From the NCBI RefSeq assembly GCF_000715075.1, contig NC_134085.1, positions 133,252,060 through 133,316,059 of the forward strand: a stretch of DNA of 64,000 bases. Direction: 5' to 3'. Shown piece by piece: positions 3,611-47,800 of this stretch (position 1 is its first letter; each line of letters begins with the position of its first letter). Source of the DNA: Nicotiana tabacum (taxonomy: Eukaryota > Streptophyta > Magnoliopsida > Solanales > Solanaceae). A program made the position numbers and the translations under genes. A model generated the notes under the pieces. That model was not told where the DNA came from, ran no database searches, and saw only the letters and a program-made list of their open reading frames with translations.

Positions 3611-3612
3611 GA

Positions 3613-5155: not shown

Positions 5156-5746
5156 TTGTTGGTTACGGATCTGGTTCAAGAGGCTTTGGACAAGGTCAGG
5201 ATTATTCAGGATAGGCTACGTACAGCTCAGTCTAGGCAAAATAGTTATGTAGACTGCAAGTTTCGAGATGTGGCTTTTATGGTTGGAGAGCGGGTATTGC
5301 TCCGAGTGTCGCCTATGAAGAGTGTGATGAGATTTAAGAAGAAGGGCAAGCTTAGCCCTAGGTTCATCGGTTCGTTTGAGATTCTTGATCGAGTGGGAGA
5401 AGTGGCTTATAAACTTGCATTGCCGCTGAGCTTATCAGTCGTGCATCTAGTGTTTTATGTATCCATGTTCCGGAAATATCACGGTGATCCATCCCACGTG
5501 AAAGATTTCAGCACTATCCAGTTGGACAAGCACTTGTCTTATGAGGAGAAGCCGGTAGCTATTCTAGACCGGCAGGTTCGTCAGTTGAGGTCGAAGAGTT
5601 TTCCTTCTGTTCGTGTTCAGTGGAGAGGTCAGCCTCCTGAGGCATCGACTTGGGAGTCCGAGTCCGATATACGGAGCCGTTATCCCCATCTTCTGTCCGT
5701 TCGAGGACGAACAGTTATTTTAGAGGTGGAGAATGTGATGACCTAA
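5156..5746 (+). pseudogene. pol: Integrase C-terminus with chromodomain (element A)
   Basis: The C-terminal 196 residues hold the GPY/F-like region ([20 protein letters not shown], about 5332-5395) and a chromodomain-like end ([12 protein letters not shown]...[15 protein letters not shown]..., about 5560-5690). Chromodomains of chromoviruses are known to steer integration to marked chromatin. A TAG where Leu or Arg is expected stands at about 5153-5155, just before this piece. The reading frame crosses the polypurine tract and closes inside the LTR. Confidence 0.88.
5719..5733 (+). promoter_or_regulatory. Polypurine tract of element A
   Basis: TTTAGAGGTGGAGAA lies directly before the LTR start TGTGATGACC. 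Its position and purine content mark it as the plus-strand DNA primer site. The same tract, inverted, borders element B at 25525-25540 and D at 48250-48266. Confidence 0.85.
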
Positions 5747-6469
5747 AAGGTCATCACTTGTTTTAAAACGAAATATCCGCATTCTAAGGCCTTGAAAACC
5801 TCATTTAGAGCCACCTCAATTTGCGTGCATAGTCTGGGCGTGTAGCCGGAAAGCTTAAATATGATAATCTGTGAAAAATGATAAGTTTTGATTATAAAAT
5901 GATCTAATTTGACACCGGTCAGTATTTTGGGTAAACGGACCTGGATCCATGATTTGACGATCCCTGAGGGTCCGTAGGAAAATATGGGACTTGGGTGTGT
6001 GTCCGGAATTGAATTCTGAGGTCCCAAGCCCGAGAAATGAATGTTTAAAGGAAATTATTTTTTGAAATTGTTTAAAGAAATTTGAAATGGAATTTGATTA
6101 GAACGTGATGGTATCGGGCCCATATTTTGGTTTTGGCACCCGGTACAGGTTTTATATATGGTTTAAGTCATTTCTGTAAAGTTTGGTTGAAAACGGACGT
6201 TGTTTGACGTGATTCGGACCTAAATTGCTAAATTTGATACTTGATGAAATTTGAGAAAAAGTTCTTGATTTTGAGGTTTGATTCATTGTTATTGAGTTAT
6301 TTTGGCGATTTGATCGCACAGATGAGTTCGTATGATGTTGTTGAGTTAGTACGTGTGTTTGGTTAGGAGCCCGGAGGACTCGAGTATGTTTCGGATGTGT
6401 TTCGGCAAGTTTTTGAACTTAGGAAAAAGTTGCAGATTCAGAGACGTTGCAGGTCTCTGAAGCCAGGTC

Positions 6470-6635
6470 TCGCGGTCCGCGGTGGAAACTTCGCAGCCAC
6501 AATGGGGGCTCCGTGACTGTGGTGGGATTTGTGCGGTCCGCGGTGAGCAAGGCCAAGCCTCCGCGTCCGCGCTCGATTTCTTGCGGTCGCGGTGGATCTC
6601 CGTGGCTGCAGTCCTTTTTATGCGGTCCGCGGAGA
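6470..6635 (+). repeat. CG-rich word cluster upstream of TATA in LTR A
   Basis: Words of the type TGCGGTCCGCGGTG recur (about 6472, 6531, 6561, 6583, 6621) in a region otherwise poor in CG. The last copy ends 15-20 bp before the TATA box. Confidence 0.7.
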
Positions 6636-6649
6636 GGATAAGAGAGGGG

Positions 6650-6657
6650 TATAAATA
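6650..6657 (+). promoter_or_regulatory. Putative LTR TATA box (element A)
   Basis: TATAAATA preceded by a purine-rich GAGAGGGG run and followed by GACGGGA. The position, about 915 bp into the LTR, is consistent with the U3/R transition. Confidence 0.65.
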
Positions 6658-7574
6658 GACGGGATTTCCAGTTATTTTCATTTTTCAAAACCCCAAAAAC
6701 ATAAGAGGCGATTTTTCAAACAACATTTCTTCTCCAAATCAATTGTAAGTCATTTTTAACTAGTTTTCTTCAATCATTAACATTTTTAACATGATTTCAA
6801 CTTCAAATCAATTATTTTCATGGTGGAATTGGGAATTTTAGGTAAAACCCTAAGAATATTAAAATTTTTGGATTTAGACCTTAAATTGAGGTCGGATTCC
6901 AAAACCAATTATATATCCGGGCTCGAAGGTAAATGGGTAATCGGGTTTTGGTCCGAATTTTGGGTTTGGACCAAGCAGGCCCGGGGTCGATTTTTGACTT
7001 TTTGGGGAAATCTTTATAAAAACCGATTTCCATGCATTAGAATTGATTCATTTAGTATTTATTGATATCGTTAAGCAAATTGTGGCTAGAAACAAGCGAG
7101 TTGGTGGTGGAAACAAGAGGTAAAGCGGTACTTGAGGCTTGAATTGTGTTCGTTGCATCGAGGTAAGTGTTTGGTCTAACCTTAGCTTGAGGGATTAGGA
7201 GTTGTGTCATGTTTTCTATTTGCTTCTTGGCGAGTACGACGTATAGGCATGGTGACGAGTATCTATACGTTGGTGTCAAGCATGACCGTGGGTCTTATAT
7301 TGTGGTTTTCATGATTTCGTTGTATTATCCATGCCTTGGTGAAGATTCCTAATTGTTGTATAAAGCTTGTGGAAAGAATTGTGACCTATGAATATTGAGG
7401 AGCGTTGGCTCAAGTTGCATAGTGAAATTGTGAAAGTACAAGTGACAATTGAACTTCTAGAGCATTGGCTCGAGTTGTGAAAGAATAAGTGATAATCGAA
7501 CCTCTAGAGCATTGGCTCAAGTTGTGAAGTGAATTGTGAAGTAAAATTGAGAAAGAGTTATTAAATCGTTCCCT

Positions 7575-8000
7575 TGCCGGAATATTGTTGTTTGTTAATT
7601 ATCCCCCTTGCCGGGATGTTGAGATTATTGATGTTGTTCCCTTACCGGGATTTCTATTATTATTTTGTTTATTCCCTAGCCCCTTGGTTTGTGATCATTG
7701 TTTGGGTGAGGAAGAGTGTTAAAGCATGAAGGGTGATGTCGTGCATTGTTTGTTATTGTGAGGAAAGAGTGTGAAGCACGAAGGGTGATGCCATGCCGCA
7801 CGACGTACCATTCCGTGCCGATTCTATTGATTATATGGTGAGGAAAGAGAGTAAAAGCACGAAGGGTGATGCCGTGCACATTTTGATTATATGATTGTTT
7901 TGGTGAGGACGAGAGTAAAAGCCCGAAGGGTGATGCCGTGCTCATTTTTATTATATAGCTGCTTTGGTGAGGACGAGAGTAGAAGCACAAAGGGTGATGT
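7575..8000 (+). repeat. Short tandem word arrays in LTR A
   Basis: Three units of CCCTTGCCGGGAT type (about 7579-7655) are followed by about five units of GTGAGGACGAGAGTAAAAGC + GAAGGGTGATGCCGTGC (7705-8005, spacing about 50-65 bp). The second type can pair GCAC with GTGC around GAAGGGTGATGCC. The first pairs TCCC with GGGA around TTGCC. Confidence 0.7.
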
Positions 8001-8169
8001 AGTGCATTTGTTGATTTCTAATTCTTTGTTGATAATCCGAGTATGTTGTTTCTTTCATTACTTGATGTCTTTCTATTCGGAATTGTTATCTCCCCCAAAG
8101 CATGGCCCCCCTCCCATATTGATTTTTTATTTCTGTAATTCTTTTCCACTGTATATATATGAACTACAC

Positions 8170-9290
8170 AGGTTTATTTGGTAGTCTGGTCCTAGCCTCG
8201 TCACTACTTCGCCGAGGTTAGGCTAGACACTTACCAACACATGGGGTCGGTTGTGCTGATACTACACACACTCTGCACTGTGTGCAGATCCAGGAGCAGC
8301 TTTCGGACAGTAGTTAGAGTGCTTCCTTCAGTCCACCCGGAGACCCAAGGTAGACCTGCAGGCGTCCGTAGGCCCTGGCATCTCCCTTTATCTCTATTTC
8401 CTGTTTCATTTCCTTTTGTTCAGAAACAGTGCATTGTATTTCTTCAGATCTTGTATGTAGTAACTCTTAGACAGTCTGTGACACTGTGACACCAGGTTTT
8501 GGGGTAATTGAGGTTTTAAAAGATGTAATAGACGTACCCTTAAGATATATAATTGTTGATTTCCGCTTATTTATTTAAAATTTCGTTTTTATCATATTAT
8601 TGACTTGTGTTTGCTAAAAGGAAGCAAAAAAATGAAAGTGTAGCAATTAGTTAAGGTTTGGCTTGCCTAGCTCCCATTAGCAGGCACTTTCACGACTCCC
8701 GGGTGGAAAATCCGGGTCGGATTTCACACCCTCAAGAGCCGTGATGGCGCCTACTGGTAAAAGCTAAGCAAGCCAAATTATCCTAATTACTTAACCTTTC
8801 CCAGTTTTAAACCATTATCAGTGATGATTAGATATCATGTAAATAGCAAAAAAAAAAATAATAGGATGACAAAATTTGTCTATTTATCTTAATACAAAAT
8901 TGCGGAAGTCTAAATACAACTCTACTAAGAATTTGGTGTCAAAGATTCACAGACGGTCTAAGAATACTACATACAAATCTAAAAGATAAAATATACACAC
9001 TTTCTGAAATAAGTAAAGGAAACAGGATAAAGAAAAAGATAGGAGGTGACGCCAAGGCCCGGGACGTCTGTAGGACTACCTCGTGTCGCCTGAGTGGGCT
9101 GAAGACAGCACCCTCACTGCGGTCCAAGCACTCCGGTATCAGTATCTGCACACAGTGCAGAGTGTAGTATCAGCACAACCGACCCCACGTGCTGGTAAGT
9201 GCCTAGCCTAACCTCGGCGAAGTAGTGACGAGGCTAGGACCAGACTACCAAATAAACCTGTGCAATATAGCGTACAAAAATAATAGGAAG
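8170..9290. repeat. Inverted repeat at the A/B LTR junction
   Basis: Sequence 8170-8726 reading right (GGTTTATTTGGTAGTCTGG ... GACTCCCGGGTGGAAAATCC) is mirrored at 8727-9280 reading left (CACCCTCAAGAGCCGTGATG ... CCAGACTACCAAATAAACC). It is formed by the 3' end of LTR A and the inverted homologous end of LTR B meeting at GGGTCGGATTTC. The terminal bases TGACA/TGTCA expected at both LTRs are gone. Confidence 0.85.
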
Positions 9291-9449
9291 AAGATAACAA
9301 TGATGGCAACAATGATCAACCAGTGATATAAATAGCAGGCAACAAGAACACCATAAATGTTTCTCAACAAATAATAGATACAAGTGCAATCAATTTATCA
9401 AGTCCTTCAAATATAAATCTTTCGCCTATAAGTCCTTCAAGTAATAATC
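8727..9449 (-). mobile_element. 3' LTR of element B, piece 1
   Basis: Matches 28240-28967 of the right LTR, from ATTTCACACCCTCAAGAGCC to CCTTCAAGTAATAATC. It is cut by the solo LTR at 9450. Confidence 0.88.
9445..9449 (+). repeat. Target-site duplication (left) of solo LTR
   Basis: TAATC, repeated exactly at 12183-12187. The uninterrupted site with a single TAATC is at 28963-28967 in the other LTR of element B. Confidence 0.95.
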
Positions 9450-10127
9450 TGTAATGACCCGACCTGTCGTTATAAGAATTAGCATCTCGTTCAACTGCTT
9501 AAGACCTCGAGGAGCTTCGTAATATGCATTATGACCCGCATGTATGGTCAAGTTTGATTTTTCGTAAGATTCGGAGATAAATTTAAAGAAAAATAAAAAA
9601 TCTCATTTTTTTAAGCTCAAATGGAAAGAATTGCCCGAAGAGTTTAATTTTGAGCAAATGACCCCAAATTAGAATTTTAATGATGTCAATAGCTTCATAT
9701 AGTGATTTCGGACATAGACGTGTGTCCAAATTTGGATTTGGAAGTCCATAGGATAATTCGGCGCATTTTGGCGAAATAAGATAGTTGATGTGTTCTAATT
9801 ATATTATTTAATATGTGGAAGAGGTCTATTACCATGATGGATGCCAAATGGATATGATAGAAAGTGTACGAGGCGTACTATAAGATATATTGGGTCTAAT
9901 TAAAGTCCTAAGCCTAAGCCAAGTTGGAAAATTTCATAATATACTAAAGTTGCAAATGAGTGCGCACAAGACCTCATTTTAGATGAGCATATCTACATGG
10001 ATATAACGATTTGTATGATACACAACCTATCAAATCAAATCCCGTTGAGTCTAGTATCCATAGAATCAAACCGTTTGTCATTTGGAGGTGTATACAGAAA
10101 GTTATGACCATTTTACCGGACATGTGT

Positions 10128-10215
10128 CATAAGCGCGCCCAGGCGCGCGGCCGCGCCGAATCCGCGGCAATGCAAGAGTTTTCTGCCTTTGAGCGCGGCG
10201 GAATGCGGCGGAATG
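10128..10215 (+). repeat. CG-rich cluster in solo LTR U3
   Basis: GCGCGCCCAGGCGCGCGGCC is followed by GAATCCGCGGC and GCGGCGGAATGCGGCGG. It sits where other LTRs of the lineage have a different word cluster. The wording shares little with the GCGGTCCGC type. Confidence 0.6.
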
Positions 10216-11221
10216 CCACAGGAGCACGGTGGAGCATGTAAAATCCCTAAAATACCCTTAGGCAGTGTAAAACCGAAGGGGGTCCAAAATTCTTCCATTT
10301 TTGGTCATTCAAGCTCGGATTTGGGCGATTCCAAAGGGGTTTTTCACGATTACGACTTGGGTAAGTGTTCTATATCCGAAAATGATTACATTTCATGAAT
10401 CTATATCAATATTCATCGTTTGTTTCGGATTTGGATGAATGAAATTGAAGTTTTTGTAAAACTTTCCAAAAATGAAAATTTAGGATTTGAAGGTCTATTT
10501 GACATCGGAATTAGATAATTTTTGTATGGTTGAACTAATATCGGAATGGGTTACCGGATTTTATGAGTTTTGTCGAATTCTAAGATGTGGGCCCCACGGG
10601 CAAAATTTTGGGTTAATTTCGGATTTTGTTGGAAAATTAGTATTTCATATGGAATTAATTCCTATAATTAGTATTGACTAAATTGAATTAACTGTGGCTA
10701 TATTCGGATCGATTGGAGGCCGATTCGAGGGGAAAAGGCATTTCAGAGTAGGATTTTGCTCGGATTGAGGTGAGTAATGATTGTAAATGATGCTCTGAGA
10801 GTTTGAAACCCCGGATTGCACATCGTAGTGCTATATTGATGTGAGACACATGTTTGATGACGAGCGTGTGGTCGTATACTATTGGGGATTGTGACTTGGT
10901 CCATCCCGCATTGATGATTTTACCGCGTATTTGACTGAGACTTATTTGTTTTCATTATGCTTTGGGCTAATTGCCATATTTGGGCTTCGTGCCAATTATT
11001 TGAATCCTTTGGGGATTTTTATTACTATTTCCTCACTGTTTTGACTTATTAATTGAACTCAGTCATGTTATTTTCCACAGTTTTACTACTCAGCCATTTT
11101 TACTCCGTTTTGAGATTTAAATGATATTTTAAATGATGTTTTAGGCTGAGAAATACTGTTTTACTAATGCTCGAGGGGCTTGTGAGTATTTTTAACTGAG
11201 TAAGGACGAGGGCCTAGTTGT

Positions 11222-11610
11222 GAGAAAAAATTGATACTAATTGAGGCCGAGGGCCTGAGATATGTACGCCACGAGGTGGCTTGTTGATATTGTTTATGAG
11301 GCCGAGGGCCTGAGATACCTATATATGCCACGAGGTGGCTTGACTGATATGAGGCTAAGGGCCTAGATTTGATGCCACGAGATGGCTTGATATTGCACTT
11401 GGGCCGTAAGGGGCCCCTCCCGGAGTCTGTACACCTCCAGTGAGCGCGGGTACCCATTGTGATATGATATTGAGCCTGAGGGGCTGTCATTATTATGATA
11501 TTGAGCCCGAGGGGCTGGCACTGTTCTGATATTGAGCCCGGGGGGCTGGTTTTGTTGATATTATGCCCGAGGGGCGGTTTATTGTACATGTTTTGCCCGA
11601 GGGGCTGTTT
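11222..11610 (+). repeat. Array of mini-hairpin words in solo LTR
   Basis: Alternating words AGGCCGAGGGCCT, GCCACGAGGTGGC (11268-11280, 11327-11339) and GCCCGAGGGGC (five or so copies, 11465-11605) stand every 25-50 bp. Each folds on itself with a 3-base loop (for example GCCAC-GAG-GTGGC). They fall in the downstream part of the LTR. Confidence 0.8.
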
Positions 11611-12690
11611 ACATTTCTATCATTTTATTACTCACTTGTAAACTACTTGCTTTACTTGTTGGAAAAAAGGGATTTTCACTTGATTTCTCACTGCTTTACT
11701 ATTTAAAGTGATTTTACTGCTTCAGTATGGAATGCCTTGTGTTTTTACGTGATTTCTTATCTTCAGTCATTATTTATATTTATTACTCACTAGATCGGAG
11801 TACTCACATTACTCCTTTCACCATATGTGCAGATTCAGGCGTTGCTGGTTCCGCTCCTAAGTGCTGATTTCCTCCAGTTTCAGGCGGCTTTCAGGGATTA
11901 CAAGGTAGTTGTTGACGTCCGCAGCCCCGTGTCTCTATTATCTCGTCTTCTATATTCCATACGGACATTGTACTAGTTATTGGATTTAGCAGACTTGTAT
12001 TATGACTCATAGATGCTCATGACTTGTGAAACTCCGGTTAGGGCTGTGTCAGACTGGACTTTCGCATTATTATCTATATTTGTATTAATTAACTATTTTA
12101 AAAGATGATTTGGGTTTAGTCGGTTGACCTTGTCTTCACGAGAGGCACCATCACGACCGAGTTCGGGGTTAAGGTCGTGACATAATCTCTAAGATAATAT
12201 GCTTTTCAATGAATATATTTCCTTTAAATAAATATCTTTCAAATAAGCATCTTTCGAATAAAATTCTTTCGAGTAAAGGTCACCTTGTGACGCCTCATTC
12301 ACTTAACATAAAGTAGAGTACAACTTCCAACTCAATTAGGAAATCAACAAGAAAAGATGAAGTTATTTTTTTTTGAAATCATTTGATAAAGAAGATACCC
12401 TTTTCAATTAAAGTACAATATTGAATGAATTATTACCTTTAATACGAAAAATCAATTAATTATAACATAGTAGAAATTCCTTTTTAAGTAAAGTATAACC
12501 TCAAACGATTTAAGAAAAATTTAGTTGAGAAATCAATTGAGTTAAAAATGTAACAATTGTTGGAATTTGGAGTATTAAACATATAAAAAAGGTAAAAATA
12601 TAATATCAAGAGAATTGTAAAGGAACCAAAATCCAACCACTAACAAGAATAAGGAAAATAAAGGCAGATTTCACTTTCTTTTCATATCTT

Positions 12691-12870
12691 GTTGCAGGCG
12701 TGCAACCCGATACCATTTCCTGTATATCGTGGCAGGCGTGCCACCCGCTCCCATTTCATGTATCTCGTGGTAGGCATACCACCCGCTCCCATTTCATTAT
12801 ATCTTGTGGTAGGCGTACCACCCGCTACCATTTCATTATATCTTGTGGTAGGCGTACCACCCGCTCCCAG
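12691..12870 (-). repeat. Hairpin-word array (GGCG loop) in element B left LTR
   Basis: Five words at 38-39 bp spacing: GTTGCAGGCGTGCAAC (12691-12706), GTGGCAGGCGTGCCAC (12729-12744), GTGGTAGGCATACCAC (12767-12782), then GTGGTAGGCGTACCAC at 12806-12821 and 12845-12860. Each has a 6-bp stem and a 4-base loop. Three different stem sequences are present, all fully paired. The spacer words CCCGCTCCCATTTCAT are also repeated. Confidence 0.9.
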
Positions 12871-12889: not shown

Positions 12890-13050
12890 ACAAAGAATCC
12901 CGGCAAGGGAACAAGAGCAATATAACAACTTCCTAGCAAGGGAACAATGATATTTCAACAACATCCCGACAAGGGAACAATACTATCAAAACAAACATCT
13001 CGACAAGGGAACAATAATATCAAACAAACATCCCGGCAAGGGAACAATGG
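12890..13050 (-). repeat. CCCGGCAAGGGAACAA word array
   Basis: Six units of the form TCCCGGCAAGGGAACAA (variants with GACAA or TAGCAA) at 30-40 bp spacing. TCCC can pair with GGGA across the loop. The same array is at 29720-29880 in the right LTR and inverted near 7579-7655 in LTR A. Confidence 0.8.
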
Positions 13051-13744
13051 TGGTAATAACATATGAAGCGCAATAAACCACAACGGAGTCATAACAATTA
13101 TAATATTGTCACGACCCCAACCCCGGTCGTGATGGCGCCCAACACACTGCTAGGCAAGCCTGACCAACTAACAACCCTTTCTGTTTTCTTATAAAAATCA
13201 TTATCAGCAAACACAGTTAAATTGCTAAATTAGTCCAATAAGAGTTTAAGACAACGAGTTAAATATGCAGAAATTCAGATGATAATACCACTACATAGCA
13301 CATACAGATCTGGTGTTACAAGTCTAGAGCCTCTAGTACAAGTTTAACAACCTAATACATGTCCATCTAGGGAATACTAATAAATAACAAGGATAAAAGG
13401 GAGAGATCAGGGCTGCGGACGCCATGCAGCTACCTCGATGCTCCCGGATATGCGCTTCTCAACTGAAATAATCCTTACTCAGCCTCAGATGCACCTGGAT
13501 CTGCACGCAAGGTGCAGGGAGTAATGTGAGTACTCCGACCCAGTGAGTAATAAGCATAAATAATGACTAAGAATAAGAAATCACGGATAACACAGAGTAA
13601 TCTATACTACCGCAGTTTAAAAACAAGTAATATGAGAGTAATAAACCAATGGAAGCGAAATGTAGAAATACTACAAGAAATAAGCAGTTTAGTGATAGAC
13701 ATATAAAGAGAAATCAACACATAGAACGGTACCCTATAGTACCC

Positions 13745-13759
13745 GCTGCGGCGTGCAGC
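13745..13759 (-). repeat. Hairpin word with GCTGC/GCAGC stem
   Basis: GCTGCGGCGTGCAGC in tandem copy 1: stem GCTGC/GCAGC with GGCGT loop. Later copies have partly broken versions (for example near 15141 and 17929). Confidence 0.6.
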
Positions 13760-16700
13760 CTGCTCCATTTATTTATCGTCGACGGCGCTCACTAGGTGTG
13801 TGCAGACTCCGGGAGGGGCCCCTTGCGGCCCCAGAGCAATATCAAGCCATCTCATGGCATCAAATCTAGGCCCTTGGCCTCATATCAATATCAGTATAAC
13901 ACTGGTGTGGTGCGCAGCCCAATCCCATAGTATCCTCACATCTGGCCCTTGGCCGTACTCAATCCAGAAATCATATAAGCCCCTCGGGCAATAGTAAAAT
14001 AGTAGTTCTCAGCCCAAAACATCATTTAATATATCTTTTGGTTTCAAAAATCGAGTAAAAGTGGCTGAGTTGTAAGACAGTAGAAAACGGTACGACTGAG
14101 TTCAAGTAGTAAGTCAAACAGTGAGGAAATAGTAAATAAACTCCCCGAAGGATTCAAAGAATTGGCAAGAAGCCCAAATATGACAATCAGTCCAAATAAT
14201 GATGATAACAAATAAGCTATAATCAAATACGCAGTAGAAACATCACTTGGGACGGACCAACTCACAATCCCCACTAGTAAACGACCCGTGCTCATTATCA
14301 AGAGCGTGTCTCACCTCAATATAGCACTACGATGTGCAAATTCGGGGTTTCAAACCCTCAGGACATCATTTACATTCATTACTCACCTCGAACCGGCGAA
14401 ATCTCTATCTCGCGATGCCTTTGCCCCTCAAATCGGCCTCCACGTGCGTCGAATCTATCCAAAATCAGAACGAATACGTCACAATATGCTAAGGGAACAA
14501 AGCCCAAGCGAAAAAAATCAACAACGGGCACTATTCCTAAAATTACCAAAACCCGAGCCCCGGGCCCATGTCTCGCAATTTGACAAAATTCACAAAACTA
14601 GAATCCTTATACTCTTACGAGTCTAACCATACAAAAATTATCCAATTCCGATACCATTTGGTCCCTCAAATCATCGTTTTACATTTTTGAAAGGTTTCAC
14701 AATTTTCTTCCCAAATTCCATCCCAAATCACGAATTAAATCATGAATTCAGTGATAGATTCATGTAATCTAGCCAAATCTGAGTTAAATTCACTTACCCC
14801 GATCAGGGATGCGGACGCCATGCAGCTACCTCGATGCTCCCGGATATGCGCTTCTCAACTGAAATAATCCTCACTCAGCCTCAGATGCACCTGGATCTGC
14901 ACGCAAGGTGCAGGGAGTAATGTGAGTACTTCGACCCAATGAGTAATAAGCATAAATAATGACTGAGAATAAGAAAACACGGAAAACACAGAGTAATCTA
15001 TATTGCGGCAGTTTAAAAACAAGTAATATGAGAGTAATAAACCAACGGAAGTGAAATGTAGAATTACTACAAGAAATAAGCAGTTAAGTGACAGACATAT
15101 TAAGAGAAATCAACACATAGAACGGTACCCTATAGTACTCGCTGCGGCGTGCAGGCCACTCCATTTATTTATCGTCGACAACGCTCACTAGGGGTGTGCA
15201 GATTCCGGAAGGGGCCCCTTGCGGCCCAAGCGCAATATCAAACAATCCCGTGGCATCAAATCTAGGCCCTCGGCCTCATATCAATATCAGTATAACACTG
15301 TTGCGGCGTGCAGCCCGATCCCATAGTATCCTCACATCTGGCCCTTGGCCGTACTTAGTCCAGAAATCATATAAGCCCCTCGGGCAATAGTAAAATAGTA
15401 GTTCTTAGTCAAAAACATCATTTAATATATCTTTTAGTTTCAAAAATCGAGTAAAAGTGGCTGAGTTGTAAGACAGTAGAAAACGGTACGACTGAGCTCA
15501 AGTAGTAAGTCAAATAGTGAGGAAATAGTAAATAAACTCCCTGGAGGTTCAAAGAATTGGCAAGAAGCCCGAATATGACAATCAGTCCAAATAATAATGA
15601 TAACAACTAAGCTTTAATTAAATACACAGTAGAAGCATCACTCGAGACGGACCAAGTCACAATCCCCAATAGTAAATGACCCGCGCTCATCATCAAGCGC
15701 GTGTCTCACCTTAATATAGCACTACGATGTGCAAATTCGGGGTTTCAAACCCTCAGGGCATCATTTACATTCATTACTCACCTTGAACCGGCCAAATCTC
15801 TATCTCGCGATGCCTTTTCCCCTCAAATTAGCCTCCACGTGCGTCGAATCTATCCAAAATCAGAACAAATACGTCACAAAATGCTAAGGGAACAAAGCCC
15901 AAGCGAAAACAATCAACAAAAGGCACTATTCCCGAAATTACCAAAACCCGAGCCTCGGGCCCATGTCTCAAAATTTGACCAAATTCACAAAACTAGAATC
16001 CTTATACTCTCACGAGTCTAACCATACCAAAATTATCCAATTCCGATACCATTTGGTCCCTCAAATCATCGTTTTACATTTATGAAATGTTTCACAATTT
16101 TCTTCCTAAATTCCATCCCAAATCACGAACTAAATGATGAATTCAGTGATAGATTCATGTACTCTTGCCAAATTTGAGTTAAAGATAGAATGGAGAGATC
16201 AGGGCTGCGGACGCCATGCAGCTACCTCGATGCTCCCGGATATGCGCTGCTCAACTGAAATAATCCTCACTCAGCCTCAGATGCACCTGGATCTGCACGC
16301 AAGGTGCAGGAAGTAATGTGAGTACTCCGACCCAGTGAGTAATAAGCATAAATAATGACTGAGAATAAGAAATCACGGAAAACACATAGTAATCTATACT
16401 GCGGCAGTTTAAAAACAAGTAATATGAGAGTAATAAACCAATGGAAGCGAAATGTAGAAATACTACAAGAAATAAGCAGTTAAGTGACAGACATATAAAG
16501 AGAAATCAACACATAGAACGGTACCCTATAGTACCCGTTGTGGCGTGCAGCCCGCTTTATTTATTTATCGTCGACGGCGCTCACTGGGGGTGTGCAGACT
16601 CCGGGAGGGGACCCTTGCGGCCCAAGCGCAATATCAAGCCATCTCGTGGCATCAAATCTAGGCCCTCGGCCTCATATCAATATCAGTATAACACTGCTGC

Positions 16701-19700
16701 GGTCGCATCCCGATCCCATAGTATCCTCACATCTGGCCCTTGGACGTACTCAGTCAAGAAATCATATAAGCCCCTGGGGCAATAGTAAAATAGTAGTTCT
16801 CAGTCCAAAACATCATTTAGTATATCTTTTAGTTTCAAAAATTGAGTAAAAGTGGCTGAGTTGTAAGACAGTAGAAAACGGTACGACTGAGTTCAAGTAG
16901 TAAGTCAAACAGTGAAGAAATAGTAAATAAACTCCCCGGAGGGTTCAAAGAATTGGCAAGAAGCCCAAATATGACAATCAGTCCAAATAATGATGATAAC
17001 AACTAAGCTTTAATTAAATACACTGTAGAAGCATCACTCGGGACGGACAAGTCAAAATCCCCAATAGTAAACGACCCGCGCTCATCATCAAGCGCGTGTC
17101 TCACCTCAATATAGCACTGCGATGTGCAAATTCGGGGTTTCAAACCCTAAGGACATCATTTACATTCATTACTCACCTCGAACCAGCGAAATCTCTAGCT
17201 CGCGACGCGTTTGCCCCTCAAATCGGCCTCCACGTGCGTCGAATCTATCCAAAATCAGAACAAATACATCACAATATACTAAGGGAACAAAGCCCAAGCG
17301 AAAACAATCAACAAAAGGCACTATTCCCGAAATTACCAAAACCCGAGCCCCGGGCCCATGTCTCGAAATTTGACCAAATTCACAAAACTAGAATCCTTAT
17401 ACTCTCACGAGTCTAACCATACCAAAATTATCCAATTCCGATACCATTTGGTCCCTCAAATCATCGTTTTACATTTATGTAATATTTCACAATTTTCTTC
17501 CTAAATTCAATCCCAAATCACGAATTAAATGATGAATTCAGTGATAGATTCATGTACTCTAGCCAAATCTGAGTTAAAATCACTTACCCCAATCAGGGCT
17601 GCAGACGCCATGCAGCTACCTCGATACTCCCGGATATGCGCTGCTCAACTGAAATAATCCTCACTCAGCCTCAGATGCACCTGGATCTGCACGCAAGGTA
17701 CAGGGAGTAATGTGAGTACTCCGACCCAGTGAGTAATAAGCATAAATAATAACTGAGAATAAGAAATCACGGAAAACACAAAGCAATTTATACTGTGGCA
17801 GTTTAAAAACAAGTAATATGAGAGTAATAAACCAATGGAAGCAAAATGTAGAAATACTACAAGAAATAAGCAGTTAAGTGACAGACATATAAAGAAAAAT
17901 CAACACATAGAATGGCACCCTATAGTACCCGCAGCGGCGTGCAACCCGCTCCATTTATTTATCGTCGACGACGCTCACTGGGGGTGTGCAGACTCCGGGA
18001 GGGGCCCCCTGCGGCCCAAGTGCAATATCAAGCCATCTCGTGGCATCAAATCTAGGCCCTAGGCCTCATATCAATATCAGCATAACACTGCGGCGGCGTG
18101 CAGCCCGATCCCATAGTATCCTCACATTTGGCCATTGGCCATACTCAGTCCAGAAATCATATAAGCCCCTCGGGCAATAGTAAAATAGTAGTTCTCAGTC
18201 CAAAACATCATTTAATATATCTTTTAGTTTCAAAAATTGAGTAAAAGTGGCTGAGTTGTAAGACAGTAGAAAAAACGGTACGACTGAGTTCAAGTAGTAA
18301 GTCAAACAGTGAGGAAATAGTAAATAAACTCCCAGGAGGGTTCAAAGAATTGGCAAGAAGCCCAAATATGACAATCAGTCCAAATAATGGTGATAACAAA
18401 TAAGCTATAATCAAATACGCAGTAGTAGCATCACTCGGGACGGACCAAGTCACAATCCCCAGTAACGCACGACCACACGCCCGTCATCAAGCGTGTGTCT
18501 CACCTCAATATAGCACTACGATGTGCAAATCGGGGGTTTCAAACCCTCAGGACATCATTTACATTCATTACTCATCTCGAACCTGCGAAATCTCTAGCTC
18601 GCGATGCCTTTGCCCCTAAAATTCGCCTCCACGTGCGTCGAATCTATCCAAAATCAGAACGAATACGACACAATATGCTAAGGGAACACATCCCAAGCGA
18701 AAACAATCAACAAAGGGCATTATTCCCGAAATTACCAAAACACGAGCCCCGGGCCCAAGTCTCGCAATTTGACAAAATACACAAAACTAGAATCCTTATA
18801 TTCTCACAAGTCTAACCATACCCAAATTATCCAATTCCGATACCATTTGGTCCCTCAAATTATCGTTTTACATTTTTGAAAGGTTTCACAATTTTCTTCC
18901 CAAATTCCATCCCAAATGACGAATTAAATGATGAATTCAGTGATAGATTCATGTACTCTAGCCAAATCTGAGTTAAAATCACTTACCCCGATCAGGGCTG
19001 CGGACGCCATGCAGCTTCCTCGATGCTCCCGGATATGCGCTGCTCAACTGAAATAATCCTCACTCAGCCTCAGATGCACCTGGATCTGCACGCAAGGTGC
19101 AGGAAGTAATGTGAGTACTCCGACCCAGTGAGTAATAAGCATAAATAATGACTGAGAATAAGAAATCACGGAAAACACAGAGTAATCTATGCTGCGGCAG
19201 TTTAAAAACAAGTAATATGAGAGTAATAAACCTATTGAAGCGAAATGTAGAAATACTACAAGAAATAAGCAGTTAAGTGATAGTCAAATAAATAAATGCA
19301 ACACATAGTACGGTACCCTATAGTACCCGCTGCGGCGCGCAGCCCGATCCATTTATTTATCGTCGACGGCGCTCACTAAGAGTGTGCAGACTCCGATAGG
19401 GGCCCCTTACGGCCCAAGCGCAATATCAAGCCATCTCGTGGCATCAAATCTAGGCCCTCGACCTCATATCAATATCAGTATAACCATTGTTGCGAAGCGC
19501 ATCCCGATCCCATAGTATCCTCACATTTGGCCCTTGGACGTACTCAGTCAAGAAATCATATAAGCCCCTCGGGCAATATTAAAATAGTAGTTCTCAGTCC
19601 AAAACATCATTTAATATATCTTTTAGTTTCAAAAATTGAGTAAAAGTGGATGAGTTGTAAGACAGTAGAAAACGGTACGACTGAGTTCAAGTAGTAAGTC

Positions 19701-21235
19701 AAATAGTAAGGAAATAGTAAATAAACACCCCGGAGCGTTCAAAGAATTGGCAAGAAGCCCAAATATGACAATCAGTCCAAATAATGATGATAACAAATAA
19801 GGTATAATCATATACGCAGTAGAAGCATCACTCGGGACGGACCATGTCACAATCCCCAATAGTAAACGACCCGCGCTCATCATCAAGCGCGTGTCTCACC
19901 TCAATATAGCACTGTGATGTGCAACTTCGGGGTTTCAAACCCTTAGGACATCATTTACATTCATTACTCACCTCGAACCGGCGAAATCTCTAGCTCGCGA
20001 CGCCTTTGCCCATCAAATCGGCCTCCACGTGCGTCGAATCTATCCAAAATCAGAACAAATACGTCACAATATGCTAAGGGAACAAAGCCCAAGCGAAAAC
20101 AATCAACAAAAGACACTATTCCCGAAATTACCAAAACCCGAGCCCCAGGACCATGTCTCGAAATTTGACCAAATTCACAAAACTAGAATCCTTATACTCT
20201 CACGAGTCTAACCATACAAAAATTATCGAATTCTGATATCATTTAGTCCCTCAAATCATCTTTTTACATTTATGAAATATTTCACAATTTTCTTCCTAAA
20301 TTCCATCCCAAATCACGAATTAAATGATGAATTTAGTGATAGATTCATGTACTCTTGCCAAATCTGAGTTAAAATCACTTACCCCGATCAGGGCTGAAGA
20401 CGCCATGCAGCTACCTCGATGCTCCCGGATATGCGCTGCTCAACTGAAATAATCCTCACTCAGCCTCAGATGTACCTGGATCTGCACGCAAGGTGCAGGG
20501 AGTAATGTGAGTACTCCGACCCAGTGAGTAATAAGCATAAATAATAACTGAGAATAAGAAATCACGGAAAACACAGAGTAATCTATACTGCGGCAGTTTA
20601 AAAACAAGTAATATTAGAGTAATAAACCAATGGAAGTGAAACGTAGAAATACCACAAGAAATAAGCAGTTAAGTGACAGACATATAAAGAAAAATCAACA
20701 CATAGAACGGCACCCAATAGTACCCGCAGCGGCGTGCAGCCCGCTCCATTTATTTATCGTCGACGGCGCTCACTGGGGGTGTGCAGACTCCGGGAGGGCC
20801 CCCCTGCAGCCCAAGCGCAGAATCAAGACATCTCGTGGCATCAAATCTAGGCCCTCGCCTCATATCAATATCAGTATAACACTGCGGCGGCGCGCAGCCC
20901 GATCCCATAGTATCCTCACATTTGGCCATTGGCCATACTCAGTCCAGAAATCATATAAGCCCCTCGGGCAATAGTAAAATAGTAGTTCTCAGTCCAAAAC
21001 ATCATTTAATATATCTTTTAGTTTCAAAAATTGAGTAAAAGTGGCTGAGTTGTAAGACAGTAGAAAACGGTACGACTGAGTTCAAGTAGTAAGTCAAACA
21101 GTGAGGAAATAGTAAATAAACTCCCCGGAGGGTTCAAAGAATTGGCAAGAAGCCCAAATAGGACAATCAGTCCAAATAATGATGATAACAAATAAGCTAT
21201 AATCAAATACGCAGTAGAAGCATCACTCGGGACGG

Positions 21236-21330
21236 AGGGAACACATCCCGAGTGAACACATCCCAAAATTCGCCTCCACGTGCGTCGAGCCCCGGGCCTC
21301 CACATCCCAAGCGAAAACAATCTACAAAGG
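21236..21330 (-). repeat. Scrambled segment in tandem copy 6
   Basis: After GGGACGGA the expected sequence is replaced by short shuffled pieces (GGGAACACATCCC twice, CGCCTCCACGTGCGTCGA, GCCCCGGGCC). All of them occur elsewhere in the unit. It accounts for the 1218-bp length of this copy. Confidence 0.7.
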
Positions 21331-23014
21331 GCATTATTCCCGAAATTACCAAAACACGAGCCCCGGGCCCAAGTCTCGCAATTTGACAAAATACACAAAA
21401 CTAGAATCCTTATATTCTCACAAGTCTAACCATACCCAAATTATCCAATTCCGATACCATTTGGTCCCTCAAATTATCGTTTTATATTTTTGAAAGGTTT
21501 CACAATTTTCTTCCCAAATTCCATCCCAAATCACGAATTAAATGATGAATTCAGTGATAGATTAATGTAGTCTAGCCAAATCTGAATTAAAATCACTTAC
21601 CCCGATCAGGGCTGCGGACGCCATGCAGCTACCTCGATGCTCCCGGATATGCGCTGCTCAACTAAAATAATCCTCACTCAGCCTCAGATGCACCTGGATC
21701 TGCACGCAAGGTGCAGGAAGTAATGTGAGTACTCCGACCCAGTGAGTAATAAGCATAAATAATGACTGAGAATAAGAAATCACGGAAAACACAAAGTAAT
21801 CTATACTGCGGCAGTTTAAAAACAAGTAATATGAGAGTAATAAACCTATGGAAGCAAAATGTAGAAATACTACAAGAAATAAGCTGTTAAGTGACAGACA
21901 TATAAAGAGAAATCAACATATAGAACGGTACCCTATAGTACACGTTGCGGCGTTCACCCCGATCCATTTATTTATCGTCGACAGCGCTCACTGGGAGTGT
22001 GCAGACTCCGGCAGGGGCCTCTTGCGGCCCAAGCGCAATATCAAGCCATCTCATGGAATCAAATCTAGACCCTCGGCCTCATATCAATATCAGTATAACA
22101 CTGCTGCGGCCGCATCCCGATCCCATAGTATCCTCACATCTGGCCCTTGGCCGTACTCAGTCAAAAAATCATATAAGCTCCTCGGGCAATAGTAAAATAG
22201 TAGTTCTCAGTCAAAAACATCATGTAATATATCTTTTAGTTTCATAAGTCGAGTAAAAGTGGCTGAGTTGTAAGACAGTAGAAAACGGTACGACTAAGTT
22301 CAAGTAGTAAGTCAAACAATGAGGAAATAGTAAATAAACTCCCCGGAGGGTTCAAAGAAATGGCAAGAAGCCCAAATATGACAATCAGTCCAAATAATGA
22401 TGATAACAAATAAGCTATAATCAAATACGCAGTAGTGGCATCACTTGGGACGGACCAACTCACAATCCCCAATAGTAAACGACCCGTGCTCATCATCAAG
22501 CGTGCGTCGAATTTACATTCATTACTCATCTCGAACCTGCGAAATCTCTAGCTCGCGATGCCTTTGCCCCTAAAATTCGCCTCCACGTGCGTCGAATTTA
22601 TCCAAAATCAGAACGAATATGTCACAATATGCTAAGGGAATAAAGCCCAAGCGAAAACAATCAACAAAGGGCACTATTCCCGAAATTACCAAAACCTGAG
22701 CCCCGGGCCCACATCTCGAAATTTGACCAAATTTACAAAACTAGAATCCTTATACTTTCGCGAGTCTAACCATACCAAAATTATCCAATTCAGATACCAT
22801 TTGGTCCCTCAAATCATCGTTTTACATTTTTGAAAGATTTCATAATTTTCTTCCCAAATCACGAATTAAATGATGAATTCAGTGATAGATTCATGTACTC
22901 TAGCCAAATCTGAGTTAAAATCACTTACCCCGATAAATTTCTTGAAAAACCTTTGAAAAATCGTCAAAATCCGAGCTCTCTAGGTCAAAATATTAAATAA
23001 AATCCAAAACCTTG

Positions 23015-23022
23015 TATTTATA
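23015..23022 (-). promoter_or_regulatory. Putative LTR TATA box
   Basis: Minus strand TATAAATA, matching the TATA-like site at 471-480 in the other family C copy. Confidence 0.5.
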
Positions 23023-23044
23023 GAGTACCCCTCAGATTTCGGTC

Positions 23045-23385
23045 ACCGCGGGCTGCAAAAACAACCGCGGCCGCAAAGGCCTTCCTCTACAGTGACAAGC
23101 TTTAGTATTTTGGCCATAACTTTCGCTACAGATGTCTAAATTGCTATATCTTTACCTTTTTTGAAACTAGACGCGATGGTCTACAACTTTCCTTTTTGAA
23201 TCATCTCAAAATTCCTTGTATATCAAAAGATATGAGCTTTCGAAGTAGGACCAGTGGAACGTTTCTTCACCGCGGTCGCGCCCACTTTTGTGCGGTCCGC
23301 GCGACGCCTACTGCGGCCACGCCCGCTTTTGTGCGGTCCGCACTGCATTCACTGCGGGTGCACTTATTTTTGTGCGGACCGCGTG
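23045..23385 (-). repeat. CG-rich word clusters in the expanded LTR
   Basis: GTGCGGTCCGC-type words at about 23291, 23331 and 23371 and a CCGCGG-containing cluster at 23045-23080 flank the shared module. Word choice is like LTRs A and D, unlike 9450-12182 and 40753-43713. Confidence 0.6.
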
Positions 23386-24083
23386 GGTGAATTCTGGGGC
23401 CTGCAACCCTCCTGGACCTGCTGCAGCTATGATTTTCGGCCTAAAACATCCCGGAACCTATCCGGGACCCCGAAACTTCAAACTAATTGTACCAACACAT
23501 CCCATGACATCGTTCAAACTTGTTCAAACCTTCGGAACGCTTACAACAATATCAAATCATCAATTTAATATAGGATTCAAGCCTAAGAACTCCAAGAACT
23601 CTTAAATTATGTTTTCGATCAAAAAGTCTATCAAATCACGTCCGAATGACCTAAAATTTTGCACACATCCCAAATGACACAACGAAACTACTGAAATTTT
23701 TGGAATTCCATTCCGACCCCTATATCAAAATCTCGCCTATCAACCGAAAATTGCCAAATATCAATTTCGCTAATTCAAGCCTAAATCTTCTCTACAACTC
23801 CAAAAAAAATTCCGATCGCGCTCCTAAGTCACAAATCACCTCCCGGAGCTAACCGAACCATCAGAACTCACATCCTAGCCCTCTAACACATAAGTCAACA
23901 TCCGGTTGACTTTTCCAACTTAAGCCTTCTTAAAAGAGACTAAGTGTCTCATTTCTTACCAAAATCCTCTCCGAACCCAAACTAATCAACCCGATCACAT
24001 AAAATACGGATACGAAGCATAACGAAGCTGAAATGGGGGAAAACGGAGCGGTAACTCATGAGACGACTGATCGGGTCGTCACA

Positions 24084-29481: not shown

Positions 29482-29700
29482 GTTGCAGGCGTGCAACCCG
29501 ATCCCATTTCCTGTATCTCGTGGCAGGCGTGCCACCCGCTCCCATTTCATGTATCTCGTGGTAGGCGTACCACCCACTCCCATTTCATTATATCTTGTGG
29601 TAGGCGTACCACCCGCTCCCATTCCATTATATCTTGTGGTAGGCGTACCACCCGCTCCCAGCATTATATCTTGTGGTAGGCATACCACCCGCTCCCAGTT
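29482..29700 (-). repeat. Hairpin-word array in element B right LTR
   Basis: Six words: GTTGCAGGCGTGCAAC (29482-29497), GTGGCAGGCGTGCCAC (29520-29535), then four GTGGTAGGCRTACCAC forms. One more unit than in the left LTR, so the array changes copy number. The CCCGGCAAGGGA array follows to about 29880. Confidence 0.9.
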
Positions 29701-29929
29701 ACAAGCCAACAATAATCACAAGGAATTCCTGCAAGGGAACAAGAGCAATATAACAACTTCCTGGCAAGGGAACAATGATATTTCAACAACATCCCGACAA
29801 GGGAACAATACTATCAAAACAAACATCCCGGCAAGGGAACAATAATATCAAACAAACATCCCGACAAGGGAACAATGGTGATAATAACATATGAAGCGCA
29901 ATAAACCACAACAGAGTCATAACAATTAT

Positions 29930-38048: not shown

Positions 38049-38343
38049 GTTGCACGCCGCAACAACATTATATATGGATCGGATTGCATGCCGCAACAAT
38101 ATTATATGGATCGGGTTGCACGCCGCAACAACATTATATATGGATCGGGTTGCACACTGCAATAATATTATATATGGATCGGGATGCACACCGCAACAAC
38201 ATTATATATGGATCGGGTTACACGCCGCAACAATATTATATGTGGATCGGGTTGTACGTCACAACAAAAATATAACGAAATGGGAACGGGTGGTACGCCT
38301 ACCACAAGATAGGTGAAATGGGAGCGGGTGGCACGCCTGCCAC
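38049..38343 (+). repeat. Hairpin-word array in left-arm LTR
   Basis: About seven words of GTTGCACGCCGCAAC type (first at 38049-38063; GTTGTACGTCACAAC at 38251-38265) spaced about 35 bp within TATATGGATCGG context, then GTGGTACGCCTACCAC (38290-38305) and GTGGCACGCCTGCCAC (38328-38343). Some intermediate words are imperfect (for example with TTACACGCCGCAA). Confidence 0.85.
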
Positions 38344-41038: not shown

Positions 41039-41559
41039 AAGCAGTGCTGCGAATGCCGACAACTACCTTGCTAAACTCCGATGACTCTGCCTCCGATCAG
41101 CCAAAAACCCGCTACCGGGTGCATAAATACCTGAATCTGCACATAAGGTGCAGGGAGTAAAGTGAGTACTCCAACTCAGTGAGTAATAATAATAAATAAA
41201 GACTGAAGGCAAGAAATCACGTAAAGCATACCAAGATGTTGTATAGAAGCAGTTCAAAACCAGTAAGAAAGCAGTGAAGCTGTAAAATCTCTTTAGAATA
41301 TTTTGGCTCAGTTTACTTCTTTTGAAAATGTCTTTTCCAACAGTTACTCAAATGAATGCCAAAAACAATTAGTGCAGATAAGCATAGAAATCCGCCTCTC
41401 GGGCACAAATACCATAGTTTAACGAGTAAAATGACAAGTAAATATGAAAGGTAAACATATAAAGGTTCGTCCCTCGGGCAGAATGTCAACAACCTTATTA
41501 CATAGAACAATATCAGCCCCTTGGACTATATCTCACATCACAATGGGTACCCGTGCTCA

Positions 41560-41790
41560 CTGTGGGTGTACAGACTCCGGGAGGGGCTTACGGCCCAAGC
41601 GCAATATCAAGCCATCTCATGGCATAAAATCTAGGCCTTCAGCCTCATATCGATCAAGCCACCTCGTGGCGTATAAATGTATCTCAGGCCCTCGGCCTCA
41701 TATCGCTCAGTGTATCCTCACATCTGGCCCTCGGCCGCACTCAGTCAAAAAATCATCACAAGCCCCTCGGGATTTTGTAAAACAGTAGTG
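41560..41790 (-). repeat. Mini-hairpin word array in the spacer LTR
   Basis: Words GCCATCTCATGGC (about 41611), GCCACCTCGTGGC (about 41647) and GGCCCTCGGCC (twice, about 41686 and 41728). The first two differ at the closing pair (AT against CG) yet both pair fully. Confidence 0.75.
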
Positions 41791-44805: not shown

Positions 44806-47800
44806 TGTCACGACCCGGATTTCCCACCTCGGGAGTCGTGATGGTGCCTACTAATGTGAACTAGGCAAGCCAATTATTGAACCATCTACCTTTTTACCAA
44901 TTTTATTCTCTTTAACAGTTACGAAGAAATAACATTTAAACAACGGAATATAACATAAGCGGAAGAAAACAATAAGCCATCTGAACATGAATATCTATTA
45001 CAACTATTTGAGTCTCGACTACCCAGAACTGGTGTCACAATTTCACAGATAGTCTAAGAATACTACAAATAAAGGTCTAAAAGAATTAATTACAACACTG
45101 TTTCTGGAAATACATGTAAGAAACAAAAAAGTAGATAGAAGGAGACGCCAAGGCATGCGGACACCTACAAGACTACCTCGGGTCGCCTGACGATCAAGAA
45201 CCAGCAATCTCACTGCGGTCCGAAGTCCACAACACTGGAGTCTGCACAAAAGAGTGCAGAGTGTAGTATCAGCACAACCGACCCCATGTGCTGGTAAGTG
45301 CCTAGCCTAACCTCGGCAAAGTAGTGACGAGGCTAGGACCAGACTACCAAATAAACCTGTGTAGTTCAATTATACAGCGGGAAAGAAATACAGAAATAAA
45401 CAAGTAAAGTTAGGAGGGGGAAACATGCTTCGGGGAATAGCATGTAAAATAGAATATTAAAAGAATTATTAAGTAATCAAAACCACCCACCAACAAGAAA
45501 AAGGGAACAAAGGTAGATTTCACTTTCTTTTCATATCTCGTGGCAGGCGTGCCACCCGCTTCCATTTCACCTGTCTTGTGGTAGGCGTACCACCCATTCC
45601 CATTTCATTATATCTTTGCTACAGCGTGCAACTCGATACACATATAATATTATTGCATCGTGCAACCCGATCCATAAATAATGTTGTTGCGGCGTGCAAC
45701 CTAATCCATATATATTATTATTGCAGCGTGCAACCCGATCCACATATGATATCGTTGCGGCGTGCAACCCGATCCATATATAATGTTGTTGCGGCGTGCA
45801 ACCTGATCCATATATAATATTATTGCGGCATGTAACCCGATCCATATAAAATATTGTTGCGGCGTGTAACCCGGTCCATATATAATATTTACAATTACAA
45901 CGTGAGTCCCGACAAGAGATCAATAAGGTATACACTATCCCAGCAATGGATTCGACAGCATAAGAAATCACGTCCCAGCAAGGGAGAAGCAGCTATAACC
46001 AAACTTGATACCATACCTAACTACCTCAGCTATAACCAAACTCGTTACAACATCTAACCACCTCAGCTATAACCAAACTCGTTACCACACCTAACTACCT
46101 CAGTTATAACCAACCTCATTCTGACACCTAACTACCTCAGTTATACCCATAATCCCTACCCAACACAAACAAACATCAACCTAAGCATCCGTAATATCAA
46201 TTTAGAACACAATGCAAGGGAACCATAATTCAATAATAGCCCGGCAAGGGGGCAACCTAATGATCTCTTCTCTTTCTCACTCTTAGTTCACAATTCACGT
46301 CACAACTCGAGCCAATGCTCTAGAGTTTCAGTTATCATTTATACTTTCACAACTCATTTCACAACTCGAGCCAATGCTCTTAAAGTTCAATTGTCACTTA
46401 TACTTTCACAATTTCACTATACAACTTGAGCCAACTCTCCTTAATGTTCTTAGGTCACAATTCTTTCCACAAACTTTATACAACAATTAGAAATCTTCAC
46501 CAAGGCATGAATAATACAACGAAATTTTGAAAATCACAATATAAGACTCACGATCATGCTTGACACCAACGTATAGATACTCGTCACCATACCTATACGT
46601 CGTACTCAACAAGAAGAAAATAGCAAATAGGACACAACTCCTAATCCCTCAAGCTAAGGTTAGACCAAACACTTACCTCGATGTCACGAACGTAATTCAA
46701 GCCTCAACTATCGTTTTACCTCTTGATTCCACCACCAACTCGCTCGTATCTAGCCACAAGTTACTTATTTATATTAATAAATGCTAAATGAATCAATTTG
46801 AATGCATGAAAATGGATTTATCAAAGTTTTACCCAAAAGTCAAAATCGCCCCTGGGCCCACATGGTCAAAACCCGAGGTTCAAACCAAAACTGGATCACC
46901 CATCCCCCCACGAACTCAAATATATAATTTGTTTTAAAATTGGACCTCAAATCGAGGTCCAAATCCCCAATTTGAAAAACTTAGGTTCTACCCAAAACAC
47001 CCAATCTCCCCCATGAAAATCATTGATTTGAAGTTGAAATCATGTTAAAAGATGTTAATGGTTGAAGAAAACTAGTTAAAAATAACTTACAATTGATTTG
47101 GAGAAGAAAAGTTGTTTGAAAAATCGCCTCTTATATTTTTGGGGTCTTAAAAATTGAAAAATAACTGAAAATCCCGTCTAAATATACTGCCCTCAGATGC
47201 CCTGTGCAGACCGCACAAAGCCAACCGCGGCCGCACAGGCTTCCTGTGTTCTGCAGTGACAAGACTTAGTATTTTGGCCATAACCTTCTCTACAGATGTC
47301 CAAATTGTGATTTCTTTACCTTTCTAGAAACTAGACACGAAGGGCTATAACCTTTGTTTTTGAATCATCTCAAAATTCCTTGTGGTCTTGTAGATCAAAA
47401 GATATAGGCTTTCGAAGTCGGACCAGTGAATCTATTCTTCACCGCGGATTGCACAGAATCTAGTGCGGCCGCACAGGCCCCTCCGAGGCCACTGTCCATA
47501 TCGTGCGGACCGCACTGGCCTGTTCAGAGGTGCTCCACCCCTCTGGGCCTACAATAGCTCTATTTTTTTAGGCCTAAGACACCCTGGAACATATCTGAAA
47601 CTCATCTGAGACCTCGTAACTCCAAACCAAGTGTACACAAAACACCAAAAACATCTAACGGATTTATTCGTGTAATAAAATCATCAAAATAACATCATGA
47701 ACATCAAATTAAATCTCAAGATCAATGAAATTTTCTCAAAAATTCTTTAAACATCATTTTTTGGAATTTTAGTCTGAATCACGTCAAATGACATCCATTT

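Follow-up and report, generated by a model that had tools for sequence, protein, structure and literature searches.

Arrays of self-complementary words in two related families of plant LTRs: hairpin units whose pairing may be kept in active lineages

What keeps an array of short palindromes palindromic while the letters of its stems change is the question raised by the window analysed here, a stretch of 64,000 nucleotides of plant-like DNA that is crowded with nested LTR retroelements. A preliminary description of this DNA had reported arrays of hairpin words in several LTRs, with stems that differ but remain paired around a kept loop, and had suggested that selection on folding, or a copying process that renews palindromes, would leave such a pattern. 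The hairpin words are present at the places described and have the stems described, with a single coordinate in error (GCCAC-CTC-GTGGC, put at 41647, lies at 41658); a second class of words with three-base loops is likewise real and also includes AGGCC and AGCCC words. The reading that we prefer, to which we give a probability of about 0.4, is that a long LTR leader holds the words as hairpin units, whose pairing is kept in active lineages and decays when copies are dead.

Self-comparison of the window and searches for LTR ends identified two related LTR families, B and C, which hold the hairpin words (Table 1). TG...CA ends are present in C5, B1, B2, and B3; no perfect target duplication was found in the flanks of the LTR ends of B2. 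On the sense strand, the end of C5 is followed by AG and then by a primer site, TTGGTATCAGAGC, which we take to be of the tRNA-Met type, and the end of B3 is followed by the primer site TTGGTACCAGAGC; it is these two sites that fix the sense strand of the LTRs. Pieces of pol at 2609-4611 gave matches to reverse transcriptase, RNase H, and the integrase zinc-binding domain (H2C2), and an ORF at 5156-5746, immediately before LTR C1, matched SH3_Tf2-1 (2.1e-22) and Chromo (3.3e-08). Judged by these matches, the pol pieces adjoining C1 are those of a Ty3/gypsy element with a chromodomain, presumably a Tekay/Del-like chromovirus. A domain search of the pol pieces beside C3 gave a SH3_Tf2-1 match and no chromodomain match. 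Of the 120 relatives listed, those that bear a protein name come mostly from flowering plants; three (P0023, P0091, and P0102) carry bacterial names, which we took for contamination. LTRs of this type would point to a Solanaceae-type host. Two rearrangements were also observed: at 8167-9262 the 3' parts of two LTRs are inverted head-on with their junction at 8718, and 35979-40145 and 43743-47952 form an inverted repeat of about 4.2 kb with 92% identity, which takes in LTRs C2 and C3 as well as flank past the LTR end.

Table 1. Positions of LTRs, candidate signals, and hairpin-word arrays in the window (a slash within a donor-like or acceptor-like site marks the predicted junction).
Feature	Position	Strand	Details
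LTR C1	about 6033-8720	+	start not delimited by a TG end
LTR C2	about 35979-39079	+	start not delimited by a TG end
LTR C3	44806 to about 47952	-	start not delimited by a TG end
LTR C4	three pieces, one of them 8718-9449	-	interrupted by B1 and B2
LTR C5	28229..31382	-	ends TGATGACCC...GGTGACA
Solo LTR B1	9450..12182	+	inserted into C4; 5-bp target duplication TAATC on both sides
LTR B2	13107..24083	-	seven ~1396-bp tandem units inside
LTR B3	40753-43713	-	
TATA-like boxes	C1 6650, C2 36733, C3 47186, C5 30550, B2 23022		TATAAATA in B2
Second donor-like site, B1	10768..10775	+	AG/GTGAGT
Second donor-like site, equivalents (starts)	C1 7161, C2 37241, C3 46678, C4 24224, C5 30070, B3 42173		
Acceptor-like site, B1	11826..11833	+	TGTGCAG/A
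Acceptor-like site, equivalents	C1 8281, C3 45248, C5 28670, B3 41143, C4 in the 8718-9449 piece		
LTR-end stems	12150-12182, 13107-13140, 40753-40790, 44806-44850		
5'-end hairpins	9450-9476, 24083-24060, 31382-31360, 43713-43688		TAATGAC/GTCGTTA, GACGAC/GTCGTC, ATGAC/GTCAT, AATGACC/GGTCGTT
C4, five 39-bp units	12691..12860	-	sense GTGGYA/GTTGCA, loop CGCC or TGCC; word starts, read on the + strand, 12691, 12729, 12767, 12806, 12845
C5, six 39-bp units	29482..29688	-	word starts, read on the + strand, 29482, 29520, 29558, 29597, 29636, 29673
C3, two 39-bp words	45540..45593	-	starts 45540 and 45578
C2, two 39-bp words	38290..38343	+	38290-38305 and 38328-38343
C2, seven 34-bp units	38049..38265	+	word GTTGC-ACGCC-GCAAC
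C3, eight 34-bp units	45618..45870	-	
C4, 33-bp units	12897..13048	-	sense word TCCC-TTGCC-GGGA
C5, 33-bp units	29731..29876	-	
B1 words around CGAGG	11165..11606	+	stems AGGCC, GCCAC, AGCCC, GCCC; loop GAG
B3 words	41515..41773	-	same CGAGG class as B1

The words of family C occur in units of 39 or 34 bp (class I words) and in units of 33 bp. All fifteen 39-bp words are fully paired over stems of 6 bp (GTTGCA/TGCAAC, GTGGCA/TGCCAC, and GTGGTA/TACCAC), around a loop that reads CGCC on the sense strand (TGCC in two words) and GGCG or GGCA on the opposite strand, which is + in C3, C4, and C5 and - in C2. Among these words each difference between stem types is confined to one column pair, the T-A to G-C difference being a double transversion, and none of the 15 has mixed arms, which do occur in B2. 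Full pairing was found in 6/15 of the 34-bp words, in 9/21 of the 33-bp words (fuzzy-matched), and in only two of the 14 class I words of B2, the other 12 not being fully paired; a GTTGT/ACAAC word lies at 38251 and a GCTGC/GCAGC word at 13745. LTR C1 instead has a 64-bp unit with a GCACG/CGTGC stem and an 11-base loop, perfect in one of five cases, and lacks any short-loop word of the kind used in the count of GC-rich hairpins reported below. A GGATCGG upstream flank is common to the class I words of B2 and C2/C3. The tandem units of B2 contain CGAGG-class words and two class I words apiece; they span the donor-like site, the word zone, and sequence beyond the acceptor-like site, and may be an emerging satellite within the LTR.

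In family B the words (class II) have a three-base loop, and their CGAGG cores carry three quite different fully paired stems; the arms AGGCC, GCCAC, and AGCCC have no half-site in common and share only the spacer. GCCAC-GAG-GTGGC occurs at 11268 and 11327 and GCCAT-CTC-ATGGC at 41611. The GCCAT/ATGGC stem had been put forward as a compensated change; we infer that it is most simply explained by one CpG deamination on an already mismatched GCCAC/ATGGC word, a state that is found at that place in B1 and in four B2 units. In an alignment across class II types the GCCAC words fell out of register with the others, and this alignment was left out of the counts. When unique words were anchored on CGAGG, at least three of four outer pairs were formed in 11/22 cases in the sense zones versus 4/67 elsewhere (P=1.5e-5), in a test that does not select by pairing and whose core was picked after the words had been seen.

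This anchored test was clearer than counts of hairpins as such. In the zone bounded by the second donor-like site and the acceptor-like site, the count of GC-rich hairpins exceeded expectation in five of the six LTRs tested (observed versus expected, C2, 4 vs 0.79; C3, 5 vs 0.72; C5, 7 vs 0.50; B1, 6 vs 0.72; B3, 3 vs 0.56), tandem copies not being independent; C1 was the exception, with 0 vs 0.54. In four of the six, enrichment was also seen in the LTR upstream of this zone. Single unit consensuses were only moderately unusual, with P values of 0.010 for the 39-bp, 0.085 for the 34-bp, and 0.011 for the 33-bp unit and of 0.035 and 0.040 for the B1 units; among the 13 tested, four fell below 0.05 and nine above 0.08.

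The covariation analysis used an alignment of 44 class I words, 38 of them distinct, that includes those of B2 and was built from listed coordinates; 89.5% of its cells pair. The covariation score of 0.367 compared with a mean of 0.196 in shuffled alignments and was reached in none of 500 shuffles (a control in which the alignment was slid by 3 also scored fairly high, at 0.303), and the numbers of paired cells and of cells changed on both sides were likewise above all 500. Two of the five measures, both of them stricter, showed no excess, namely pairs changed on both sides (3 vs 3.0, reached by 425/500 shuffles) and additional types of pair (6 vs 7.3, reached by 497/500). Under a tree-aware null, in which substitutions were re-dealt along the tree in 1000 simulations each, the 44 words scored 0.405 vs 0.11-0.15 (P 0.000-0.004 in seven runs), with 3-7 same-branch double changes vs 0.25-0.53 under the null. 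Trees were built with the stem columns and the analysis was repeated without them; as each tree is based on about 40 columns, the P values are rough. The C family alone gave P=0.002 (5 double stem changes and 11 others) and the 39-bp words alone P=0.003 (3 double and 0 other, i.e., single, changes); the 34-bp words gave P=0.089 (1 double, 9 others), and no covariation was found in the B2 words (P=0.864; 0 double, 14 others). The support from covariation is thus partial: an excess of paired changes over the tree-aware null is seen in the C-family words, on few events, is weak in the 34-bp words, and is absent from the B2 units.

Comparisons between related copies bear on whether pairing is still maintained where the LTRs now lie. 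When C2 is compared with C3, differences fall on 11/70 sites in the stems of the 34-bp words vs 27/299 sites outside words (P=0.12), and on 0/32 sites in the two 39-bp words; C4 and C5 differ at 0/60 sites in their 39-bp stems vs 6/107 in the array spacers (P=0.09), a conservation that is no more than suggestive. Since the 34-bp stems vary no less than the remainder of the stretch, dead copies do not generally keep pairing. The original interpretation is partly supported: the excess of paired changes in the C family speaks for it, and the 34-bp stems of C2 and C3, which were not spared, limit it.

In all eight LTR copies the arrays occupy the same place, flanked by the second donor-like site on one side and by the acceptor-like site on the other, both of which are conserved. 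The second donor-like site reads AG/GTAAGT in family C and AG/GTGAGT in family B, and is exact in 4/7 units of B2; the acceptor-like site varies to TGTTCAG in C2 (at 38637) and to GCGTGCAG in 7/7 B2 units. Past the acceptor-like site, at a distance of 67-74 bases, AAGGTAGT or GAGGTAGT occurs in C2, C3, C4, C5, B1, and B3, and neither occurs at that spot in C1 or B2. By our own estimate, chance alone would give one such short donor match in about two LTRs, so the splice-site argument rests on conservation between the families. In five of the eight copies (C1, C2, C3, C5, and B2) the first donor-like site (TTGTAAGT or GGGTAAGT) is preceded at 80-94 bases by a TATA-like box, which puts the arrays downstream of a predicted promoter; C4 has TTTATTTC at this place and no intact TATA-like box, B1 and B3 have no TATA-like box at the corresponding place, and these LTRs, being AT-rich, contain TATA-like strings at other places too. 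Since the box precedes the earlier donor-like site in these five copies, the word arrays are probably transcribed.

Other inverted repeats were observed in the same LTRs. One adjoins the LTR end, where the last ~35 bases form a stem, TCACGACC...GGTCGTGA, next to the primer site; one pair of this stem is G-U in B3 and one is mismatched in C5. It is reminiscent of a U5 inverted repeat. Four LTR 5' ends open with small hairpins whose stems vary and are mostly still paired. The acceptor-like site itself lies inside a hairpin, CTGCAC-loop-GTGCAG (8272, 9145, 28663, 13501, and 41137), with a constant stem and a variable loop, the opposite of the words; its stem is broken in C2.

Tests specific to RNA folding did not set the word zones apart. 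Mean folding z-scores of the zones were near zero, with no clear folding excess (-0.09 to -0.44 on the sense and -0.06 to -0.80 on the antisense strand, vs -0.57 to 0.04 and -0.54 to -0.06, respectively, elsewhere in the LTRs), and the zones that stood out were those on the antisense strand of C1, C5, and B1. Single words fold at -4 to -9 kcal/mol; within arrays the intended hairpins had mean probabilities of 0.17-0.53 on the sense and 0.16-0.77 on the antisense strand, values that probably reflect pairing of units with one another. An excess of G-U on the sense strand was not found among mismatches, which comprised 20 G-U vs 22 A-C in a hand tally that dropped 11/53 class II rows (mis-anchored or with a deletion) and 2/14 B2 class I rows (one-base deletion), with C3_34h added by hand. 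The folding and mismatch results do not favour RNA over DNA. Dimerisation by kissing loops was considered and rejected, the loops CGCC, ACGCC, TTGCC, and GAG not being self-complementary. No Rfam match reached the gathering score in the window. In viral contigs, two stretches matched reverse transcriptase patterns and neither encodes a relative, four matches to an 18-base word pattern had unrelated flanks and were taken as chance, and a 22-base word pattern was unmatched; a 23-base pattern was unmatched in genome contigs.

The absence of mixed arms in the 39-bp words, together with B stems that share only the loop, suggests that pairing itself is the property kept, and the results point to selection in moving lineages or template switching in reverse transcription as what keeps it. 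According to the reading that we prefer, the long leader of Ty3/gypsy LTRs, if transcribed as predicted, would contain hairpin units of which moving lineages retain a short stem of 5-6 bp presenting a fixed loop (for family C, CGCC or ACGCC; for family B, GAG with a closing C-G pair), which would leave stems free to drift through paired changes; in copies that were inserted or tandemly duplicated and then died, pairing would decay. The intron-like segment would be spliced or retained, and the loop may be read by a protein or another partner; which copies were live at which time is likewise a supposition. The position of the arrays downstream of a TATA-like box makes hairpins in RNA or cDNA the likelier form. 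A more specific version, in which a loop-reading hairpin array in an intron-like Ty3/gypsy leader would be a docking site, in RNA or single-stranded cDNA, for Gag or a host factor and would govern retention, packaging, or silencing of unspliced RNA, seems to us quite unlikely.

Three other accounts were weighed. Template switching at quasi-palindromes can yield paired changes in one event, and if it copied arm to arm during reverse transcription, pairing would be renewed in the absence of any selection on folding. That each 39-bp type difference lies in one column pair, as a single switch might leave, is consistent with such renewal, and the failure of B2 and 34-bp words to renew their pairing would place the process in the retrotransposon cycle; constant loops with varying stems, however, and the clustering of words in arrays are unexplained, and we regard mutational renewal without selection as unlikely. 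Still less probable, in our judgment, is that two or three old palindromes were spread by tandem duplication and exchange, with double changes arising by coincidence or by transitions at methylated C. The double changes that parsimony assigns to the trees do number just 3-7, deamination on both strands would fit the C-G to T-A changes, one CpG transition accounts for GCCAT/ATGGC, the GGATCGG flank in B2 and C2/C3 suggests exchange of modules, and two shuffle measures were without excess; against this stand the double transversion from T-A to G-C and the 3 double and 0 other stem changes of the 39-bp words (P=0.003). The words might also be dyad-symmetric DNA boxes, that is, double-stranded sites for dimeric host factors acting as enhancer units as in Sireviruses, but located here beyond the TATA-like box, in an intron or leader. 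This is a possible account, though a doubtful one; the RNA-specific tests were negative, GTKGYA could serve as one loose half-site, and arrays of palindromic cis-motifs are already known in plant LTRs (PMC2829016, PMC10760457). A loose half-site, on the other hand, predicts mixed arms, which were seen in 0/15 of the 39-bp words, though B2 has some, and the B arms AGGCC, GCCAC, and AGCCC share a spacer and no half-site.

The nearest known kind of structure is the repeated motif of Sireviruses (Ty1/copia; Bousios et al. 2010, PMC2829016), a short palindrome that in most cases contains CpG and is present in 8-32 copies per element; its boxes are found in the LTRs, upstream of the TATA box, with conserved CGG-CCG half-sites and variable intervening bases. 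The statement that no named element matched the words was therefore only half right, as these elements are an established case of plant LTRs with palindromic repeated-motif arrays. The arrays in the window resemble the Sirevirus motifs in comprising many short palindromes in plant LTRs, and differ in superfamily (the sole element here with readable pol is the chromodomain-containing Ty3/gypsy element), in the conserved part (here the CGCC or GAG loop is mostly kept and stems vary, whereas there the half-sites are kept), and in position (here downstream of the TATA-like box where one was seen). Palindromes in maize Copia LTRs form hairpins proposed as a source of small RNAs (Bousios et al. 2016 as told in PMC10760457), and PMC10760457 describes maize Ty3/RLG elements as generally having no obvious peak of such structures; the LTRs studied here likewise contain potential hairpins, but, unlike those hot spots, their zones show no clear folding excess. 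Long R regions can be conserved by stem-loops, according to PMC3601003. Tandem repeats in plant retrotransposons have been described as sources of satellites (PMC7004042, PMC3648361), and the short and long retrotransposon-derived arrays resemble those found here; the titles and abstract openings of these two papers do not mention palindromic words with paired changes. Among the matches listed in a literature search, no title or abstract opening concerned such words in Ty3/gypsy LTRs, and the papers listed as literal matches to six word sequences had, by title, unrelated subjects. If the signal holds in large sets of copies, palindromic arrays of plant LTRs would include some that are kept for folding rather than for a half-site; dead and live copies should then differ, which would test selection against renewal by template switching. 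A further array in the window, at 54245-55160, has units of 47-50 bp with CAGG-AGCCCG-CCTG words; read along the - strand, it follows another element, one that has reverse transcriptase at 59225-60709.
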